35,062 nt of DNA. Origin: Zobellia amurskyensis (GTDB taxonomy: Bacteria > Bacteroidota > Bacteroidia > Flavobacteriales > Flavobacteriaceae). Made by a program: the position numbers and the translations under genes. The stretch lies in the NCBI RefSeq assembly GCF_009725985.1, contig NZ_RCNR01000050.1, positions 1 to 35,062 of the forward strand. The letters run 5' to 3'. The notes beneath the pieces were generated by a model. It searched no databases, was not told where the DNA came from, and saw nothing but the letters and a program-made list of their open reading frames with translations. Shown here one piece after another: positions 7,807-34,269 of the stretch (the stretch's first letter is position 1; every line of letters begins with the position of its first letter).

Positions 7807-9714
7807 ATGGTTTTCACTAAAATATTTGGACAAATTTTTTCAAGCGCTAATTATTTCAAATTCTTTTGGCTGGTTTTAATTTATCTGAACATAGGCAGTT
7901 TGGTCGCTCAAACAAATTTTGTGATAGATTATGTGCCAAAAGACACCAAACCATCAGACATACTGTATTTAACGGGAACATTTAATAATTGGAAACCTGC
8001 AGATGTAAATTACAAGTTTACAAGAAAAACTGATGGAACCTATGAGTTAAGAAATAAGTTTTTTAATGGGTCTTGGATATCTTATAAAATTACCAAAGGT
8101 AGTTGGCCTACTGTAGAGGTCAAAAATGATGGAACACCGCTAACGGTAAGAAAACACTCTTTTAACAATGCTATAGAAGAAACATTAATCTTACAGGTGG
8201 CGGGTTGGTCCGACACTTTTAACGAACAAACCAAACCCCAAAAAGTAGCGATTGTTTTAACGGAAATACCCCGAAACACTCCTCCAAATTCCTCAATATA
8301 TATATGTGGTAATTTTAATGGTTGGGTACCAGGAGATCAACGTTATAAAATGAAACAGCTTGCCAACGGAAACTTTCAAATAGAGGTTCCTGTTTATACA
8401 GCGCCGTTGGAATATAAGTTTACTCGCGGTAATTGGCTAACAGTTGAGGGTAATAGTTATGGCAGGCCTATACCTAACCGCATATTGGGTAGCAAGGAAA
8501 TTAGTCTTAACCAGCCCATAAAAAACAGAATAACATACTGGGAAGACCAGTCTTACGGTATATTTAATCCTTACACCTTACTCTTAATCCTTACGGCTTT
8601 ACAAGGTTTTTTTCTCATATTTATTATTAATTCCAGTAGAAATAATAACAAGTGGGCCAATCAGGCATTAAGCGTTCTCATTTTTATCATATCGTTTACA
8701 TTAATTTCTAGAGTAGTAATATATGATCGGGTAATTTATACCGATTATCCAAGACTATCGCTATTAACTGATTTGGTCTTTTTCTTATACGGCCCCATTT
8801 TTCTAATATATATTGAAAGATTATTGCAACATAGTAAAAAATCCTTTCAGGCCTATTGGCCACATTTTATACCATTTATAATACAGATTGCATTATATAT
8901 CACCTTTTCTTTTAATCCCACGCATACCTTTATTGAGCAAAATTTATTTCAATCTTTAGAATCTCCACCATACGCATTTTACGAAGTGATTGTACTGCTG
9001 GCGTTAGTGTTTAATATATGGTATTGGTTTAGGATTAAAGGGAAAATTAAAATGTACTTTAGAAATATTGAAGTCAATTATTCTACGGATCAGAATATAA
9101 AATATTTGAACGTAATAATGATGGTGCTTGGGGTATGTTTAGTGTTGTGGACGGTAATTGTTCTGGTTGATATCTATAGTACCTATAGTAATTATCCCAT
9201 AAACTATACCGCAAATTTATTGATAGATACTCTATGGGCTGTTTTTTCGGTGGTGGTTTATTTATTGGGATATTTCGCCATAAAGCAACCGGAAATCTTT
9301 AGAATGGCCGTTGTAGAAGTAGAAGAGTCAACACCAGAAGAAAATCGTTCGCAAATCAATACAGGCGAGTTAAAGGAACTTAAGCAGGCATTACATTTAA
9401 AAATGATTCAAGAACAGGTATATTTAAATCCAGAATTAAGTTTGCCGGAATTGGCCGAAAAAATGGATACCAATGTGCATACCCTATCCAAAACTATTAA
9501 TGCGGGGTATTCCAAAAATTTCAGGGATTTTGTAAATTATTATAGAATTCAGGATTTTATAGAGCGCGCCCAAGACCAAAAATACAAGAACCAGACCTAC
9601 TTGGCGATAGCCTTGGCAGTAGGTTTCAATTCCAAATCATCTTTTAACCGATCGTTTAAAAAGGTAACCGATAAATCGCCTAGAGAATATTTTAATAATC
9701 TGAAAACAGACTAG
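7807..9714 (+). CDS. Membrane AraC-family regulator with two extracytoplasmic glycogen-binding-like domains
   Basis: A 635-residue protein. A hydrophobic N-terminal segment ending SLVAQT (about residue 36) looks like a signal peptide. Two tandem domains of about 100 residues follow (about 37-138 and 145-245), each with an E-set/glycogen-binding pattern: YLTGTFNNWKP and YICGNFNGWVP, then later YKxTxGxWxTVE. About seven transmembrane helices span residues about 255-505, including the LLTDLVFFLYGPIFLIYIER segment common in 7TM-type flavobacterial AraC proteins. The last 110 residues are a two-helix-turn-helix AraC domain (LSLPELAEKMDTNVHTLS, then AIALAVGFNSKSSFNRSFKK). The likely role is to sense alpha-glucan or maltodextrin outside the inner membrane and switch the flanking amylase and Sus genes. 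The architecture is read from the sequence; ligand and target genes are inferred from location. Confidence 0.85.
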   Translation: MVFTKIFGQIFSSANYFKFFWLVLIYLNIGSLVAQTNFVIDYVPKDTKPSDILYLTGTFNNWKPADVNYKFTRKTDGTYELRNKFFNGSWISYKITKGSWPTVEVKNDGTPLTVRKHSFNNAIEETLILQVAGWSDTFNEQTKPQKVAIVLTEIPRNTPPNSSIYICGNFNGWVPGDQRYKMKQLANGNFQIEVPVYTAPLEYKFTRGNWLTVEGNSYGRPIPNRILGSKEISLNQPIKNRITYWEDQSYGIFNPYTLLLILTALQGFFLIFIINSSRNNNKWANQALSVLIFIISFTLISRVVIYDRVIYTDYPRLSLLTDLVFFLYGPIFLIYIERLLQHSKKSFQAYWPHFIPFIIQIALYITFSFNPTHTFIEQNLFQSLESPPYAFYEVIVLLALVFNIWYWFRIKGKIKMYFRNIEVNYSTDQNIKYLNVIMMVLGVCLVLWTVIVLVDIYSTYSNYPINYTANLLIDTLWAVFSVVVYLLGYFAIKQPEIFRMAVVEVEESTPEENRSQINTGELKELKQALHLKMIQEQVYLNPELSLPELAEKMDTNVHTLSKTINAGYSKNFRDFVNYYRIQDFIERAQDQKYKNQTYLAIALAVGFNSKSSFNRSFKKVTDKSPREYFNNLKTD

Positions 9715-13110: not shown

Positions 13111-13527
13111 GGAAAAACTGTTCTCGCATTTCCAGTTGAGCGAACGTATACCGAAGGCTATTATGGAGATACCTGTCAAAAGAATATAGACCATTACCGA
13201 GCGGAGTACGCAAGAAATATAGAGCGGATGAACGGTCCATAGGGCAAGTATATGAAATGGAAACGACAGAGTACGGTGGAACCCGTTTTCGGAACGTTGA
13301 CACAGTTCATGGGCATGAGGAAGGTGAACACGATAGGGCTCGAACAGGCGAACAAGGTGATGCACCTCTCGGCCATGGCCTATAATCTTAAAAAGTACCT
13401 GAAGTTCGAACAGAAACGTTCCAAAAGTGGGGCGGGACGGATTGATTTGGCATCCTTGGTAAAAAGTGCCCTTCAATACTTGTTCGGGACATGCATAAAG
13501 CATCTAAATTTGGTGCCTCGATTCTGA
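13111..13527 (+). pseudogene. C-terminal remnant of an IS1182-family transposase
   Basis: The frame reads GKTVLAFPVERTYTEGYYGD, then HYRAEYARNIERMNGP, an in-frame TAG at 13240-13242, then GKYMKWKRQSTVEPVFGTL and later QANKVMHLSAMAYNLKKYLKF. The STVEPVFGTL and AMAYNLKKYLKF blocks are the conserved tail of IS1182-type DDE transposases of Bacteroidota. The catalytic Asp residues and the N-terminal two thirds are absent, and the frame closes upstream, so this is a dead fragment. An ATG at 13252 opens a 91-residue stretch, but this is not a functional gene. GC content is visibly higher than in the flanks. Confidence 0.8.
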
Positions 13528-21724: not shown

Positions 21725-23086
21725 ATGCACCATTCATCTTACACTATTGTCACCATAAACACGGTACCCGTAACGGAGTATTATCATAGACTTTTAGAAA
21801 TTTGTATTGTTCATATCAAGAACAATATTGAAGTGGGGCGGTTTAATAGTTTAATCAACCCACAGAGGCCACTTGGCAAGGATGTGCTTGAGCATACTGG
21901 GCTCACGAATGATATATTAAGGTTTGAACCTGTTTTTTGTGAAGTTGCAGATGAAATATTATATTATTTAAAAAATACCGTAGTAGTAACTTTTTCTGAT
22001 TTCGCTTATAAAGTTTTACGTAGTGAGTTTAAAAAAATTGGTTATCAACTTTCAGTTCCGACCTCGTGTGTTTCAATACTTCTAAACAAGAACTTTCCGA
22101 ATTTACCTAATAGTCTTAAGTTAATATCCGAACATTTTGAGATTTGCAAAGGAGACTTAAAACGTTGTGACGTTATGGCCGAAATAATGGTTGAAATAAT
22201 ACAGAGATTAAATTTGGCCATTTTGGACTCCAACAGTTCTGTTAATCCGTATAATAAAAAGGATAGGATAGATATTAGTAGATTAGAACGTAAACCAGGA
22301 GTCTATTACTTTAAAAATAGCAGTGGGGTCGTTATTTATGTTGGTAAGGCTGTGAGGATTAAGGATAGGGTTAAAAGTCACTTTAATAGTAATCTGCAAC
22401 GTGAGCAAATAATCTGCTCTGAAACTACAGAGATTAATCATGTCTATACTGGAAGTAATTTAATCGCTGAACTTTCAGAGTCGGATGAAATCATGCAATA
22501 TCATCCTAAATATAACATTGCCCAAAAGAAACATACCTCACCCTTTATCGTAGTTTCTAAGATTAATAAGAAGGGGTATATGCAGATGTCTATAGTACGA
22601 AAAGACTATCCGGATTCTATAAACGAGGTTTTTTATAATAGAAAATCCGTAGCAAAAAAGCTTATAGAATTATGTGAGGAGTATGAACTGTGTCCTAAGT
22701 TTAGTGGGTTTCATAAAGCACTAGGTAAATGTAAACATGACAATTTCCTTGACTGTCCATCCGCTTGTATTGGCGAAGAACCTCCGGAGACTTATAATTT
22801 AAGGGTTAAGGCAGCACTTAAGTCCTTAGAGTGTAACCAGAATAGCTTTGCAATAAAACTCAGAGGGAGGACTAAGGATGAAATGGGTTTTGTCCTAGTT
22901 CGTGATGGTGTGTATTTGGGATTTGGATACGTTGAACTCAACGAGCAAATAGTTTCCTTACACGATTTTGAAAGTTTTATTGTCCATAAAACGCATTCGT
23001 ATCATACAACCAGGATTATTGATTCATTTATTCAAAAACCACTAAACAAGTCAAAAATTATATATTTAGACAGAGTTGAGTTCTAA
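21725..23086 (+). CDS. UvrC/Cho-like GIY-YIG nuclease with a degenerate DnaQ-like N-terminal domain
   Basis: A 453-residue fusion. Residues 6-160 align with DEDDh exonucleases (DnaQ epsilon type), but the first-motif acids are replaced (Thr10, Asn12), the middle Asp is Ala94, and the His is Asp144; only Asp149 remains. This half therefore looks catalytically dead. Residues about 188-265 form a GIY-YIG endonuclease domain with intact features: GVYYF (Gly192-Tyr194), VIYVGKA (Tyr205-Gly207), Arg215, Glu252 and PKYN. The tail has UvrC-like cysteines: Cys in YELCPKF, GKCKHD and DCPSACIG. This layout matches Cho-type nucleases, which make the 3' incision in excision repair. It is divergently coupled to the UvrD-like helicase gene. 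Confidence 0.85.
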   Translation: MHHSSYTIVTINTVPVTEYYHRLLEICIVHIKNNIEVGRFNSLINPQRPLGKDVLEHTGLTNDILRFEPVFCEVADEILYYLKNTVVVTFSDFAYKVLRSEFKKIGYQLSVPTSCVSILLNKNFPNLPNSLKLISEHFEICKGDLKRCDVMAEIMVEIIQRLNLAILDSNSSVNPYNKKDRIDISRLERKPGVYYFKNSSGVVIYVGKAVRIKDRVKSHFNSNLQREQIICSETTEINHVYTGSNLIAELSESDEIMQYHPKYNIAQKKHTSPFIVVSKINKKGYMQMSIVRKDYPDSINEVFYNRKSVAKKLIELCEEYELCPKFSGFHKALGKCKHDNFLDCPSACIGEEPPETYNLRVKAALKSLECNQNSFAIKLRGRTKDEMGFVLVRDGVYLGFGYVELNEQIVSLHDFESFIVHKTHSYHTTRIIDSFIQKPLNKSKIIYLDRVEF

Positions 23087-28934: not shown

Positions 28935-29024
28935 GTGATGAACCTATATTTAAGTAAACTTGCTCTTATAGCTAATTGTAACTAATTATTTATAAAGGTT
29001 ACAATACATATTCCGGCTCAATAG

Positions 29025-29050
29025 CGTTAAATTTTCTCGATAACGTTAAA
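29025..29050. promoter_or_regulatory. CGTTAAA direct repeat upstream of the AraC-BLUF gene
   Basis: CGTTAAA occurs at 29025-29031 and again at 29044-29050, 19 bases apart, on one face of the helix and 20-45 bases upstream of the TATTTTTG box. AraC proteins typically bind direct repeats of this spacing, so this may be an autoregulatory site. Confidence 0.4.
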
Positions 29051-29069: not shown

Positions 29070-29077
29070 TATTTTTG
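29070..29077 (+). promoter_or_regulatory. Candidate -7 box (TATTTTTG) of the AraC-BLUF gene
   Basis: Matches TAnnTTTG and lies 16 bases before the ATG. No convincing -33 element was seen. Confidence 0.4.
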
Positions 29078-29093
29078 ATTAAAAACTACAGCA

Positions 29094-30554
29094 ATGTTAA
29101 AATTAAGAGAAGACAATCCTCTTGATATGTTACGTCAATTTTCGGTTCATTTTGATGGGGATTTAATTGAGCATCTCGGAGCGGCTAAAATGTCTATAGA
29201 CAATAGTCATGGTAAAGGGTATGTAAGTTTATATGAACTAATACCTGGTTTAACCGCATGGACATATAATATTGAACTAGCCGAAGATTTACTAATCAAC
29301 ATGGAATTTTCAGAGGACAGACCATTTTACTTTGGTTATAATGTTTCTGGTTATCAATTACAGAAATTCCCACATGAGTCAAGTCATAAAAAAATAAGAC
29401 AAGGACAGAATTTCATTATTATTAGTGAACCCAATACGAGCACTGAATTTATAATCCCTAAGAATGTTCTTTACAAATGTTGCTATATTATAATTAATTC
29501 AAGGTTGTTATTAGAGAGTAACATACAAAGTAAAATTAAGTTGCTTCATGACTTAGAGGAAAATTTTAATTTCACGGAAAATGAGCGACCCTATAGGTAT
29601 TTTGGTGATATTGATGCTAGAATTGGAACATACGCTTCAATCATAGTAGAAAATAAGCGTACTGATATTGTTGGGAGATTAATCACCGAAGGATCTGTAC
29701 TTCGGATGTTAGGCTCTCAAATAGAAGCACATCAACACGATTGCAATACAGAAAATTATCGACCATCTATAACAAAATCGGAACTATCTAGAATAACCAA
29801 TACAGGAGATTATGTGCTTGAACATATCTCTGAAAAAATCACTATTGATGAAATAGGTCGTCATTTAAGAATATCACCCAAAAAGCTTCAAGCCGGTATT
29901 CGTTTTCTTTACGGTTATTCTGCTAATGAATATCTCACTAAAATACGTCTAGAGCATAGTAGAGAACTAATGCACTCTACTGAAATGAATATTTCGGAAA
30001 TTTGCTTTGCTGTAGGTTACCAGAGTAAGAGTTACTTTTCAAAGATTTTTTCGGATACTTTCGGTACTTCTCCAAGTACATATAGAAAAAAATATGAGGA
30101 TGCCAATTTGTTGTTTGATATCAGTTATCGTTCTCTAGCTGTAGATACTACAAGTGGAACAGACGTTGATGAGATTATTTCTCTTGCAAGATTAAAAAAT
30201 CCACAATTTGAAATAACGGGCAGTATTATATTTCATAGAAACATTTTTTTCCAAATCATTGAAGGTCCCAAGAAACATGTCTTGGCCTTATTTGAGAATA
30301 TCTGTAAAGATACTAGGCATAAGAACATCCAAGTGATGTGGAAAGGTTTTAAAATTAGGCGTGAGTTTGATGATTGGGCTCTGGCAACCCTTAGCGATGA
30401 AGGTGAGCTAGAAGTGCAAATTCAAGGAAACACCAAAAACCTTGAACTTGGTAACCTCTTAGGTAAACTAGATAATAGCGCTATAGATTCAGAAAATTTG
30501 TGGAGAAAAGTTAGAAATATAATTAAGGTTAATGCAAACGATTCTGCTGCTTAA
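29094..30554 (+). CDS. AraC-family transcription regulator fused to a C-terminal BLUF blue-light sensor
   Basis: A 486-residue soluble protein. Residues about 1-215 are an uncharacterised N-terminal region of the kind found in AraC proteins. Residues about 230-335 hold the two-HTH AraC domain (ITIDEIGRHLRISPKKLQAG, then ISEICFAVGYQSKSYFSKIF and FGTSPSTYRKKY). Residues about 340-440 form a BLUF domain: SYRSLA (Tyr345), Asn369 followed by ITGSIIFHRNIFFQIIEGP (Gln387), DTRHKNIQVMWKG and REFDDWALA (Trp428). The Tyr-Asn-Gln-Trp spacing (24, 18, 41) equals that recalled for AppA (Tyr21, Asn45, Gln63, Trp104), so flavin binding and photochemistry are expected. The position of AppA Met106 is Leu430. 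It should convert blue light into a change in DNA binding. The gene sits between a PAS kinase and a convergent receiver gene, whose stop codon is 12 bases away. Confidence 0.9.
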   Translation: MLKLREDNPLDMLRQFSVHFDGDLIEHLGAAKMSIDNSHGKGYVSLYELIPGLTAWTYNIELAEDLLINMEFSEDRPFYFGYNVSGYQLQKFPHESSHKKIRQGQNFIIISEPNTSTEFIIPKNVLYKCCYIIINSRLLLESNIQSKIKLLHDLEENFNFTENERPYRYFGDIDARIGTYASIIVENKRTDIVGRLITEGSVLRMLGSQIEAHQHDCNTENYRPSITKSELSRITNTGDYVLEHISEKITIDEIGRHLRISPKKLQAGIRFLYGYSANEYLTKIRLEHSRELMHSTEMNISEICFAVGYQSKSYFSKIFSDTFGTSPSTYRKKYEDANLLFDISYRSLAVDTTSGTDVDEIISLARLKNPQFEITGSIIFHRNIFFQIIEGPKKHVLALFENICKDTRHKNIQVMWKGFKIRREFDDWALATLSDEGELEVQIQGNTKNLELGNLLGKLDNSAIDSENLWRKVRNIIKVNANDSAA

Positions 30555-30565
30555 TAGAACTGAAC

Positions 30566-31003
30566 TTATACAGTTTTCAGCAGTATTTTCTTTTGAAAAA
30601 GATCATTAATGACCTCTTTAAGTTGCGAATGCATTTTATCAAGAGATGTTTCTTTCGTCAAAAAGTAAAGAGCTCCCATGTCCAAAGTTTTCCGTCGGTC
30701 CTCTTCAAATGAGGAAGTAGAGTAGATAATAACTGGAATCTTATTTAATAAATCGTTCTTCTTTAATTGAACCAAACATTCAAAACCGTTCATAACCGGC
30801 ATATTTAAATCCAAAAAAATTATTTTTGGAATTATGCCCGTTGTTAATGCGGATAATATATGATTCAACAACAATTTTCCATTTGAAAATAATTTCATTT
30901 CCACTTCTGGATAAATGTCCTGTACCGCCTCAGCAAAGAACATTCTATCATCTTCATCATCATCAGCGTAAGCTAGAGGGCTAAAAATACTATAATCGGT
31001 CAT
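30566..31003 (-). CDS. Single-domain response regulator (CheY-like receiver)
   Basis: A 145-residue lone receiver. The acidic pocket is ADDDEDD (Asp14-19), the phospho-acceptor is Asp65 in FLDLNMPVMNG, the switch is IIYSTSS and the lysine is Lys117 in FLTKETS. It has no output domain. It is convergent with the AraC-BLUF gene (11 bases between stop codons), which may couple their expression by antisense read-through. It is a close paralogue of the receivers at 14932 and 34275. The multi-PAS kinase at 26658 lacks its own receiver and is a reasonable partner. Confidence 0.92.
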   Translation of the reverse strand: MTDYSIFSPLAYADDDEDDRMFFAEAVQDIYPEVEMKLFSNGKLLLNHILSALTTGIIPKIIFLDLNMPVMNGFECLVQLKKNDLLNKIPVIIYSTSSFEEDRRKTLDMGALYFLTKETSLDKMHSQLKEVINDLFQKKILLKTV

Positions 31004-31767: not shown

Positions 31768-34269
31768 TTAAGTTATGGGAAGATAAAGGCAGAAAACAGA
31801 ACCTTTTCCTAATGTACCGGTAGCAGTTATTGCGCCATCATGGTTTATAGCAATTTTTTTAACAATAGCCAATCCAATGCCAGTTCCTTGGTACTCCAAT
31901 TTACCATGTAATCTTTTGAAAATTTCAAAAATTTGATTTCCGTATTGTGCTTCAAATCCAATACCATTGTCAGAGAAACTTAGTTGCAAATACGTTTGTT
32001 TAGCATCTAAAACTAAATTTTTTATTTTGGCGCCCTCAATCTTTTCTGCTTTGATTTCTATTTTTGGATGAGTATCTGGCTTTGCAAATTTTATGGAGTT
32101 TTCTAAAAGATTTTGAAATACTTGCCTAATTTGGAATGGAATAACCTTTGCTTCGCCAAGGTCATCATATTTGATTTCAGTGTTAGTCAGTTCAATTTTT
32201 TCCGATAGGTTTTCAATTACCTGCCCCAACAATAATGTCAAATTATGAGGTTCGAAATCTTCTTCTTGTTTTGATGTTCTTGAAAATGCCAACAAGTCTT
32301 CAATAAGAGTTCGCATTCGATCAGCAGATGAAATAACACGATCAAAGTATTGCCTACCTTTTTCAGAGAAATTTTGTTTTTCCTGAGATAAGATACGACT
32401 GGTCATCATTTGAATTTTTCGTAGTGGTTCTTGTAGGTCATGACTTGAAATGTAGGCGAAAGATTCAAGTTCATCATTGCTCTTCTTTAATTCTTGAACA
32501 GTGTCTTCCAACTTCTCGTTAGCTGCTTTAAGAAGTTCTGTTCTTTCCAGTACTTGCTGTTCAAGCTCTCTTGAAAAATTTTCGAGCTTTTGTCTGGCAA
32601 CAACACTATTTGTGACGTCAGTAACTGTGAGCATTACTCCAGAAATGGAGCCATCTAACTCTTTAAGGGCAACATAGTCAAAATCTACATAATACTCCTT
32701 TGTTATATCATTACTCTTAACTAGAGCATGCGATTCTTTTACAGATAAAGACTTACCTGTATTCATAACCGAATGGAGAAAAGCAGGATATTCCTGCGTT
32801 TTAAGTTCGGGAAATATATCAAGGAGATTTTTCCCTAATATCTCCGCCTCTTTCTTTCGCCAAAAATGGCTCAACATGGCTTGGTTTGCCATTTCAATTT
32901 TTAAATTCTTACCTCTAAGTATTGCCATTGCAATAGGAGATTGAAGTACCAAGTTCTGAAATTCAGCCTCACTCTCCAAAACATGATGCCGTGCAATAAC
33001 TGATTCCGTTACTTCTGAGGCAACACACAATATAGCATCGACATCTCCTTTATCATCAAACGATGGACTAAAAATGAAATTGAAGTAAGCTGTTACGGTC
33101 TGACCGTTGCGCACAAAATTAAATGGGTATTCCATTCCTGACTGTGCAGTTTGTGTTTGTATCACATTCTCAAAAATAGGCCGCAAGCCTGATTCTATTT
33201 CGGTTAAAACCTCAAAAATAGGTCTGCCTTCAGTTTGATCTCTCTTTGTATTCCAGATGTCTAGGGCTTTATCATTAATAAGATTGACCTCATAATCTTT
33301 CGCACTTATAATTGCTATGCCAATAGGAACATTTTTAACAAGATTCCGAAATTTTTTCTCACTTTCTTGAATCTTTTGCTGAGCTATTTTATCCTCTGTA
33401 ATATCTTGCAATATCCCGTTAAAACGATAAGCAATTTTTTTCTCATTGAACCAACTTCTCCCCACGGCCCTAACTATACGAGTTTGATTCATTTGCTTAT
33501 TGTTAATAGTATAAATTATATCGTATTTACCTCCCGAATCATAATTTAGCGCCGTGACTATCTCTTCGGATACGCGTTGTTGATCTTGCTCTAAGATGGC
33601 AGTCATAGCATCGTTTAATTGGATTTCGTCTTGCAACGGTAGTCCAAACCATTCTTTGAGTCTGTCATTACTCTTAAACTTGTTCGTAATGGGGTTATAA
33701 TCCCAAGTACAAAGTTCGGCGGCATTCATAGCAAATTGAAGCTCGTTTTCGCTTTCCTCAAGATTCTTCATGGTATTGACATTATTCGTAGTTTCAGAGC
33801 ATGTCACCAAAATTCCATTTATATCGCCCATTTCGTCTTTAACGGGACTGTAGCTAAATGTCCAATATGCTTCTTCAATTTTGCCATTTCTATAAATGGG
33901 TATAAGTTGATTTTCGCTCCATGTTGCACCTTTTCCTGATGAAACGCTAATTAGAAGAGGTTGTATAGTATCCCAAATTTCAGGCCATGCTTCCTTTCCT
34001 TTCATACCTAAGATTAATGGATGTTTACCATCGTTACCAAGACTTACTCTATAGGCATCATTATAAAAACCAGTATAGTCGCCCCCCCAGAATACATACA
34101 TTGGAAACCTTGAGTTTAAAACGATGCTAAGTGTTGTTCGCAGACTTTGAGGCCAAGTATCTGGTGCACCCAAGGAGGTCGTTTCCCAGTTTTTGTTGCG
34201 AGTTAATTCTCCCATTTCTCCTCCACCTTCCATAAAAGGAAATATTTTTTGATCTATATTGGAATTCAT
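31768..34269 (-). CDS. Multi-PAS sensor histidine kinase
   Basis: An 833-residue cytosolic kinase without transmembrane helices. About four PAS domains precede the kinase core: residues 40-165 (FPMYVFWGGDYTGFYNDAYR), 175-295, 305-425 and 430-560. A coiled coil with LEQQVLERTELLKAANEKLE follows. The phospho-acceptor is His610 in YISSHDLQEPLRKIQ. ATP-binding sites are NLLENSIKF, SDNGIGFEA and GTGIGLAIVKKI. The PAS-1 sequence is typical of flavobacterial kinases, often bacteriophytochrome-like in the core (ISSHDLQEPLRKI), but no phytochrome GAF domain is present. It starts 5 bases after the stop of the receiver gene at 34275, so the two form an operon and probably a phosphotransfer pair. Confidence 0.93.
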   Translation of the reverse strand: MNSNIDQKIFPFMEGGGEMGELTRNKNWETTSLGAPDTWPQSLRTTLSIVLNSRFPMYVFWGGDYTGFYNDAYRVSLGNDGKHPLILGMKGKEAWPEIWDTIQPLLISVSSGKGATWSENQLIPIYRNGKIEEAYWTFSYSPVKDEMGDINGILVTCSETTNNVNTMKNLEESENELQFAMNAAELCTWDYNPITNKFKSNDRLKEWFGLPLQDEIQLNDAMTAILEQDQQRVSEEIVTALNYDSGGKYDIIYTINNKQMNQTRIVRAVGRSWFNEKKIAYRFNGILQDITEDKIAQQKIQESEKKFRNLVKNVPIGIAIISAKDYEVNLINDKALDIWNTKRDQTEGRPIFEVLTEIESGLRPIFENVIQTQTAQSGMEYPFNFVRNGQTVTAYFNFIFSPSFDDKGDVDAILCVASEVTESVIARHHVLESEAEFQNLVLQSPIAMAILRGKNLKIEMANQAMLSHFWRKKEAEILGKNLLDIFPELKTQEYPAFLHSVMNTGKSLSVKESHALVKSNDITKEYYVDFDYVALKELDGSISGVMLTVTDVTNSVVARQKLENFSRELEQQVLERTELLKAANEKLEDTVQELKKSNDELESFAYISSHDLQEPLRKIQMMTSRILSQEKQNFSEKGRQYFDRVISSADRMRTLIEDLLAFSRTSKQEEDFEPHNLTLLLGQVIENLSEKIELTNTEIKYDDLGEAKVIPFQIRQVFQNLLENSIKFAKPDTHPKIEIKAEKIEGAKIKNLVLDAKQTYLQLSFSDNGIGFEAQYGNQIFEIFKRLHGKLEYQGTGIGLAIVKKIAINHDGAITATGTLGKGSVFCLYLPIT

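Follow-up and report, generated by a model that had tools for sequence, protein, structure and literature searches.

An AraC-BLUF fusion gene of Zobellia amurskyensis encodes a rare, candidate light-responsive transcription factor

Results

Domain organization of the fusion protein

The window analyzed here, a 35,062-nucleotide stretch of the 5.1 Mb Zobellia amurskyensis genome, contains at positions 29094..30554 (+ strand) a gene that encodes an AraC-type DNA-binding domain and a BLUF domain in a single open frame (486 aa); a stop codon lies in frame 15 bases 5′ of the ATG. The protein is made up of an N-terminal domain (residues 1-225; 29094..29768, +), an AraC/XylS DNA-binding domain (HTH_18, residues 256-332; 29859..30089, +), a BLUF domain (residues 340-430; 30111..30383, +) and a C-terminal tail that carries a conserved Trp-containing segment, LWRKVRN (Trp470; 30390..30551, +). 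The original prediction of an AraC HTH pair followed by a full BLUF domain in one chain was borne out by both Pfam and PDB matches, with its coordinates and strand correct. The BLUF (PF04940) and HTH_18 profiles proposed as a check both scored well above their cut-offs: PF04940 matched residues 340-430 with 80.8 bits (cut-off 25, E 8e-23) and HTH_18 matched residues 256-332 with 73 bits (cut-off 33.6), while HTH_AraC matched residues 293-332 with 48.9 bits (cut-off 26.6). PDB sequence matches fell into a first part (residues about 236-332) shared with the AraC-type HTH of AraC, SoxS, RamA and XylR, and a second part (about 340-440) shared with AppA, photoactivated cyclases, Slr1694, BlrP1 and others.

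The protein has the DNA-binding domain of two HTH motifs, about 100 residues long, by which AraC/XylS proteins are recognized. This domain is usually, although not universally, C-terminal in the family; in the fusion protein it is followed by the BLUF domain and the tail. Such an arrangement does not exclude membership because Rob of Escherichia coli, in which an AraC-type HTH is followed by a C-terminal domain that is not a photoreceptor, offers a precedent. The fusion resembles Rob in having a domain after the AraC-type HTH and differs from it by an added N-terminal domain and by a photoreceptor domain at the C-terminus. Pfam gave three matches for the protein (E up to 5), none of them to a PAS/LOV family, which sets it apart from LOV-HTH regulators.

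In BLUF domains a Tyr and a Gln are photochemical and an Asn and an Arg contact the flavin, and all of these residues are present (Tyr345, Gln387, Asn369 and Arg408). The spacings between Tyr345, Asn369, Gln387 and Trp428 (24, 18 and 41), which had been likened to those of AppA, held when set against the AppA sequence (Tyr21, Asn45, Gln63 and Trp104); the position of AppA Met106 is occupied by Leu430. PF04940 was matched by each of 13 aligned fusions. The fused module resembles a whole short BLUF protein such as PixD, BlrB or BlsA, including the Trp-containing C-terminal segment found in many of these: Trp at the Trp470 position is also present in 38 of 73 non-fused BLUF sequences. Short BLUF proteins of this kind act on partner proteins and carry no DNA-binding domain.

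The N-terminal domain, which was missing from the original prediction, is a separate unit conserved across the AraC subfamily, with or without BLUF. A profile search of the PDB (E up to 5) returned no relative of this domain, Pfam assigned nothing to it and all NCBIfam models remained below cut-off. It is likely a sensing or dimerization domain.

Distribution and evolution of the fusion

The fusion is real and rare. Frameshift and misassembly were ruled out by full-length relatives without inner stops in other genomes: other fusions have uninterrupted frames, several of them in single-contig genomes, and the nearest named relative, from Zobellia russellii, shows 78% identity across residues 1-486, that is, over all 486 residues. 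The sequencing frameshift that the original prediction had put forward as its own refutation is countered by the same full-length architecture being encoded in other genomes, and it is exceedingly improbable that frameshift, misassembly or a chance joining of two genes produced the gene. Our collection comprises 16 full-length fusions from 13 genomes (including Z. russellii and genome G594). A 13-fusion profile detected at least 14 fusion genes in at least 11 of 397 Flavobacteriaceae genomes, all with 586 bits or more, and the next matches, which lack BLUF, reached 389.2 bits or less. A class-wide survey of 395 genomes found the fusion in at least three, one of which (G594) belongs to another family; within the order of G594 (149 genomes), among the best candidates scored per genome, it was found in G594 only. 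These counts are lower bounds because few best candidates were scored per genome (the best four, or up to ten in the survey of the 149-genome order), and they agree with the earlier claim that BLUF is uncommonly joined to AraC. By comparison, BLUF of any kind occurred in 154 of the 397 Flavobacteriaceae genomes. Outside the fusions, the BLUF frames among the matches listed were at most 222 aa, except for one of 355 aa (locus L075) that reads like a cyclase. No match in plasmid records covered 80% of the fusion query.

Distribution within Zobellia is patchy, the fusion being present in the window genome (G000), G236 and Z. russellii and absent from G001 and G388, each of which has two BLUF matches, all in short frames. 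Among 13 aligned fusions the architecture is kept at full length down to 25% identity, and residues 218-438, which include the HTH/BLUF junction, align without indels. Identity of the window protein to its Zobellia orthologues at L034 and L065 is 77 and 78% in the BLUF domain, 76 and 70% in the N-terminal domain and 80 and 85% in the HTH, respectively; BLUF is conserved about as much as the other parts among Zobellia orthologues. Synonymous sites were saturated, and hence no dN/dS value was obtained. The closest fusion outside Zobellia genomes (L073) shares 50% identity.

A tree of 89 BLUF domains, built on few columns and with many unresolved forks, placed the 16 fused BLUFs in one clade (SH-aLRT 97). 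In the corresponding AraC tree of 79 parts, which remained from 131 family matches after removal of duplicates and rows under 280 aa, the 16 fusions lie inside a 21-row clade (support 96.8) that also holds five BLUF-less members (from G209 and G045 and at L188, L189 and L190). Monophyly of the 16 fused AraC parts was not rejected (AU p 0.175), yet it was not the best tree. No BLUF remnants were detected behind L188, L189 and L190 (tblastn, E up to 1), and these clade-mates indicate that the AraC part can live without BLUF.

In G209 and G045, the BLUF-less clade-mate gene is followed in the same orientation by a short BLUF gene; the gaps in these two operons are 7 and 14 bases if the ATG behind the upstream stop is taken as the start. 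This pairing, found in two genomes, is evidence that BLUF acts on this type of AraC protein. The two operon BLUFs fall in a different BLUF clade from the fused ones; an origin of the fused BLUF from the operon BLUFs was not supported, given the differing clades in a tree of few columns and unresolved forks. On the simplest reading of this history, AraC and BLUF would have fused once, long ago, with BLUF lost again from some members and a clade-mate AraC gene separately joined in an operon by another BLUF. The fusion is probably old and functional.

We also considered whether stand-alone BLUFs generally adjoin this AraC subfamily, which was not supported: a subfamily member lay within about 6 kb at 4 of 62 loci, and these are exactly the four (L076, L077, L082 and L083) that had been chosen earlier for their AraC neighbor and added to 58 others. 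The sample was hand-picked as the first stand-alone BLUF per genus among the matches listed, with some (g64, g138 and others) skipped. At two further loci, L191 and L192 (G191:C3 and G125:C1), several BLUF-less members of the AraC subfamily are clustered with few genes between them.

Output residues of the fused BLUF domains

Analysis of the 16 fused BLUFs revealed both invariant and variable positions. Tyr345, Gln387 and Arg408 are present in all 16 and Asn369 in 15; Trp428 is kept in 12 and replaced by Cys, Ile, Phe or Pro in the other four. In one fusion (L070, 10049-11500) neither the BLUF Asn nor the Trp remains, and together with the Trp428 replacements this suggests that some members may not signal normally. 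The L070 gene, in G154, is the second of two tandem fusions, with Lys for Asn and Cys for Trp, so that an intact and an altered BLUF stand side by side.

The position of AppA Met106 is occupied by Leu in nine of the 16 fused BLUFs, among them that of the window, and in none of 73 non-fused BLUFs. The latter (72 short, one cyclase-like) carry Met in 59 cases, and the remaining 14 have Tyr for Trp. According to a study of AppA (PMC4630285), loss of Trp104 or Met106 disrupts signaling in vivo while the red shift stays, and the pair is termed semi-conserved. The fusion, with Trp428 and with Leu430 in place of Met, differs from AppA in this output pair, which does not define BLUF domains. Given the role of AppA Met106, the Leu suggests that fused BLUFs tolerate or favor a different output residue.

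The same observations could be read as a BLUF domain that is photoactive and has been decoupled or re-purposed, one that still cycles but, with Leu430, does not gate DNA binding by the AppA route and serves as a structural, redox or temperature-sensing module. The confinement of Leu to fused BLUFs and the sparing of the red shift when AppA output is broken are consistent with such a domain, as is the integration of light and temperature by the short BLUF protein BlsA, described in PMC5955987. Against it, Met is kept in seven of the 16 fusions, including L073; the nine sequences with Leu are relatives and so reflect few events, not nine independent ones; and conservation of the BLUF domain roughly equals that of the DNA-binding part. 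We regard a decoupled BLUF as unlikely.

A candidate operator upstream of the fusion

Alignment of the upstream regions of three Zobellia fusions revealed a conserved direct repeat, ATAGCGTTAA / ATAACGTTAA, 19 bp from start to start (29021..29049, +), that constitutes a candidate operator. In the window its layout is ATAGCGTTAA-N9-ATAACGTTAA, and it ends 20 bases 5′ of TATTTTTG (29070..29077, +). This word is identical in L065, differs by one change in L034 and resembles the Bacteroidota -7 box, whose consensus we take to be TAnnTTTG. An exact search for the paired repeat gave a single site in G000 and a single site in G236, both immediately 5′ of the fusion. Allowing up to 2 mismatches across four Zobellia genomes added no site outside the upstream region of the fusion itself; at this stringency G001 and G388, both without a fused BLUF, contain none, and a reversed control pattern gave zero matches. 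When 3 mismatches were allowed, matches were about as numerous as for the reversed pattern, and a looser pattern gave fewer matches than its reverse; as neither search did better than its control, no further target can be named.

A direct-repeat test applied singly to 20 upstream regions gave P 0.04 or less in L065, L067, L069 and L074 only, with 0.13 for the window, 0.33 for L034 and values from 0.07 to 1 for the other regions. Since these single-region tests were not significant for the window and L034, the case for an operator rests on conservation, uniqueness and spacing across the family. With regard to spacing, the half-sites of araI are 21 bp apart, and GTTA pairs at 21 bp were present in 5 of 14 fusion upstream regions, a set in which one of the three Zobellia was retained and in which GTTA had first been noticed by eye. 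In 300 shuffled sets, the count of GTTA pairs at a given spacing between 12 and 40 was never above 2, a value attained in 16 sets. Some pairs of A/T-only 4-mers equal or exceed GTTA at 21 bp, in real and shuffled sets alike, and the maximum over all 4-mer pairs was 5 or more in 225 of the 300 shuffled sets. Among 5-mers, the commonest pair at spacings of 12 to 40 was TGTTA at 21 bp (4 of 14 regions), and some 5-mer pair was as common in 4 of 300 shuffled sets. Upstream of BLUF-less relatives (n=61), GTTA pairs at 21 bp occurred in six, compared with at most one at each of the remaining eight spacings from 17 to 25; four of these 61 had been inspected beforehand, none of which is among the six. 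Upstream of 62 short BLUF genes there was one GTTA pair at 21 bp. In sum, half-sites of AraC type, read from the DNA sequence, comprise a 19 bp repeat in three Zobellia and GTTA at 21 bp in some other regions, with most upstream regions showing none. The fusion protein is probably an autoregulating AraC-type factor.

Neighboring genes

Convergent with the fusion gene lies a gene for a single-domain response regulator (30566..31003, -), close relatives of which are also convergent with the fusion in L034, L065 and L067. The window also encodes a PAS-rich histidine kinase (31768..34269, -) whose N-terminal type recurs near the fusion in 5 of 14 other loci. These neighbors raise the possibility that BLUF acts in trans, with the fusion protein sitting on DNA and the light signal passing to a partner such as the response regulator or the PAS kinase. 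The response regulator adjoins the fusion at three of the 14 loci other than the window (125-236 bits), and the PAS kinase type, found in five of these loci, was present at 1 of 58 stand-alone BLUF loci. Weaker response regulators of the same type (28-94 bits) were, however, present at 4 of the 58 control loci, and the fusion loci compared were longer (13-19 kb vs about 12 kb). Moreover, four of the five kinase loci represent two species of one genus, and neighbors vary at most fusion loci. We therefore give signaling to a partner a low probability, lower than that of a decoupled BLUF.

Several further gene families accompany the fusion or its relatives at some loci. At L185 the fusion shares its region with a long catalase, a short BLUF and DUF892 and YetF-like proteins; DUF2383 genes were found in the vicinity of the fusion at two loci besides L185. 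At the 58 stand-alone BLUF loci that served as controls, catalase was found twice, DUF2383 three times, YetF once and DUF892 not at all. Beside AraC family members, DUF2383 genes were found at 14 of 53 short loci (11 genomes), and in three Zobellia genomes a stand-alone BLUF is located in the same region as a BLUF-less AraC family member, DUF892 and a Dps-type ferritin (L078, L079 and L080). One of these, L078 (G000:C9:115000-132000), also holds a response-regulator-like gene, a PAS kinase and DUF2254. No match to the catalase, DUF892, YetF, DUF2383 or Dps-type ferritin families was found among the genes of the window. The neighbors at some related loci hint that the targets may be photo-oxidative or general stress genes.

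Farther from the fusion, the window encodes at 7807-9714 (+) a 635 aa protein whose N-terminal part has starch-binding-like segments (X25 and CBM53 matches just below cut-off); its middle appears to span the membrane, and at the C-terminus is an AraC HTH. It adjoins SusC/SusD-like and amylase-like genes and is perhaps a membrane-bound, starch-sensing AraC regulator. A DDE transposase fragment at 13252-13527 (+) (DDE_Tnp_1_6, 35.5 bits) is probably a remnant insertion sequence, and in the product of 21725-23086 (+) an RNase_T-type exonuclease domain is fused to a weak match to the GIY-YIG nuclease (21.1 bits against a cut-off of 22.6).

Discussion

We propose, as the probable reading of this gene, that the protein is a one-component AraC/XylS factor to whose C-terminus an entire short-BLUF module has been added, that light switches its DNA binding and that its own promoter carries its operator. 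Under this proposal, a dimer of subunits laid out as N-terminal domain, AraC HTH pair, BLUF and tail would bind its own promoter at a pair of half-sites separated by roughly two turns of the helix. Blue light would be absorbed by FAD in the pocket of the BLUF domain, and the hydrogen bonds among Tyr345, Gln387 and the flavin would rearrange. The signal could then reach the adjacent second HTH by one of two routes, via beta5 and the tail or via the short junction of fixed length (roughly residues 333-339), and the change would affect how the protein binds DNA or contacts RNA polymerase. The N-terminal domain would probably provide a second input or a dimer interface. A two-sequence AlphaFold model (pLDDT 33.5) gave no support for domain contacts. 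The candidate operators upstream of the gene and the single clade of fused BLUFs fit a working regulator. We infer that DNA binding by the fusion protein is light-dependent. The original statement that light directly controls DNA binding omits the N-terminal domain, as a possible second input, and Leu430.

To our knowledge, the BLUF systems that reach transcription (AppA, BluF, BlsA and PixD) all use a partner protein. AppA of Rhodobacter sphaeroides works as an antirepressor, its target being a repressor on a different chain. The AppA-PpsR system resembles the fusion in the equal spacing of the BLUF Tyr, Asn, Gln and Trp and in the action of light on transcription; it differs in that AppA has Met106 where the fusion has Leu, and in that the fusion unites sensor and DNA-binding domain in one chain. 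In EL222 the sensor lies ahead of an HTH of another type, whereas in the fusion it lies behind the HTH and is a BLUF and not a LOV domain. As given in a review (PMC4844311), EL222, a LOV-HTH protein of Erythrobacter litoralis, is a one-component blue-light transcription factor; the same text counts just eight bacterial LOV proteins with an HTH and describes 64% of BLUF proteins as short and 34% as EAL-linked. E. coli BluF (YcgF) is described in PMC3509220 as a BLUF-EAL protein that antagonizes the separate MerR-like repressor BluR, so that BLUF controls an HTH regulator there as well, with BluR a separate protein and the fusion a single chain.

No description of an AraC-BLUF fusion was found among the titles and abstract openings of the open-licence papers listed; the architecture may be catalogued elsewhere. 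Relative to the literature searched, the joining of AraC and BLUF, the Leu confined to fused BLUFs and the self-operator are new, while the kinds of sensor and regulator are known. More tentatively, and with some doubt on our part, these proteins could form a separate natural class of BLUF one-component transcription factors, marked by a rigid junction, an output free of Met106, a second signal through the N-terminal domain and feedback at their own promoter. If so, the photoswitch would sit behind the DNA-binding domain and drive the second HTH, and the protein would compute light and a second signal together.

A chain of BLUF and AraC HTH would allow the output step of BLUF to be read directly on DNA, and might find use as a compact blue-light promoter switch with FAD as its sole requirement. 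Fused BLUFs with Leu in place of Met106, a replacement found here in no other BLUFs, provide natural variants for probing how photochemistry is coupled to output. Finally, such a regulator would put the light sensing of marine flavobacteria at the level of transcription.
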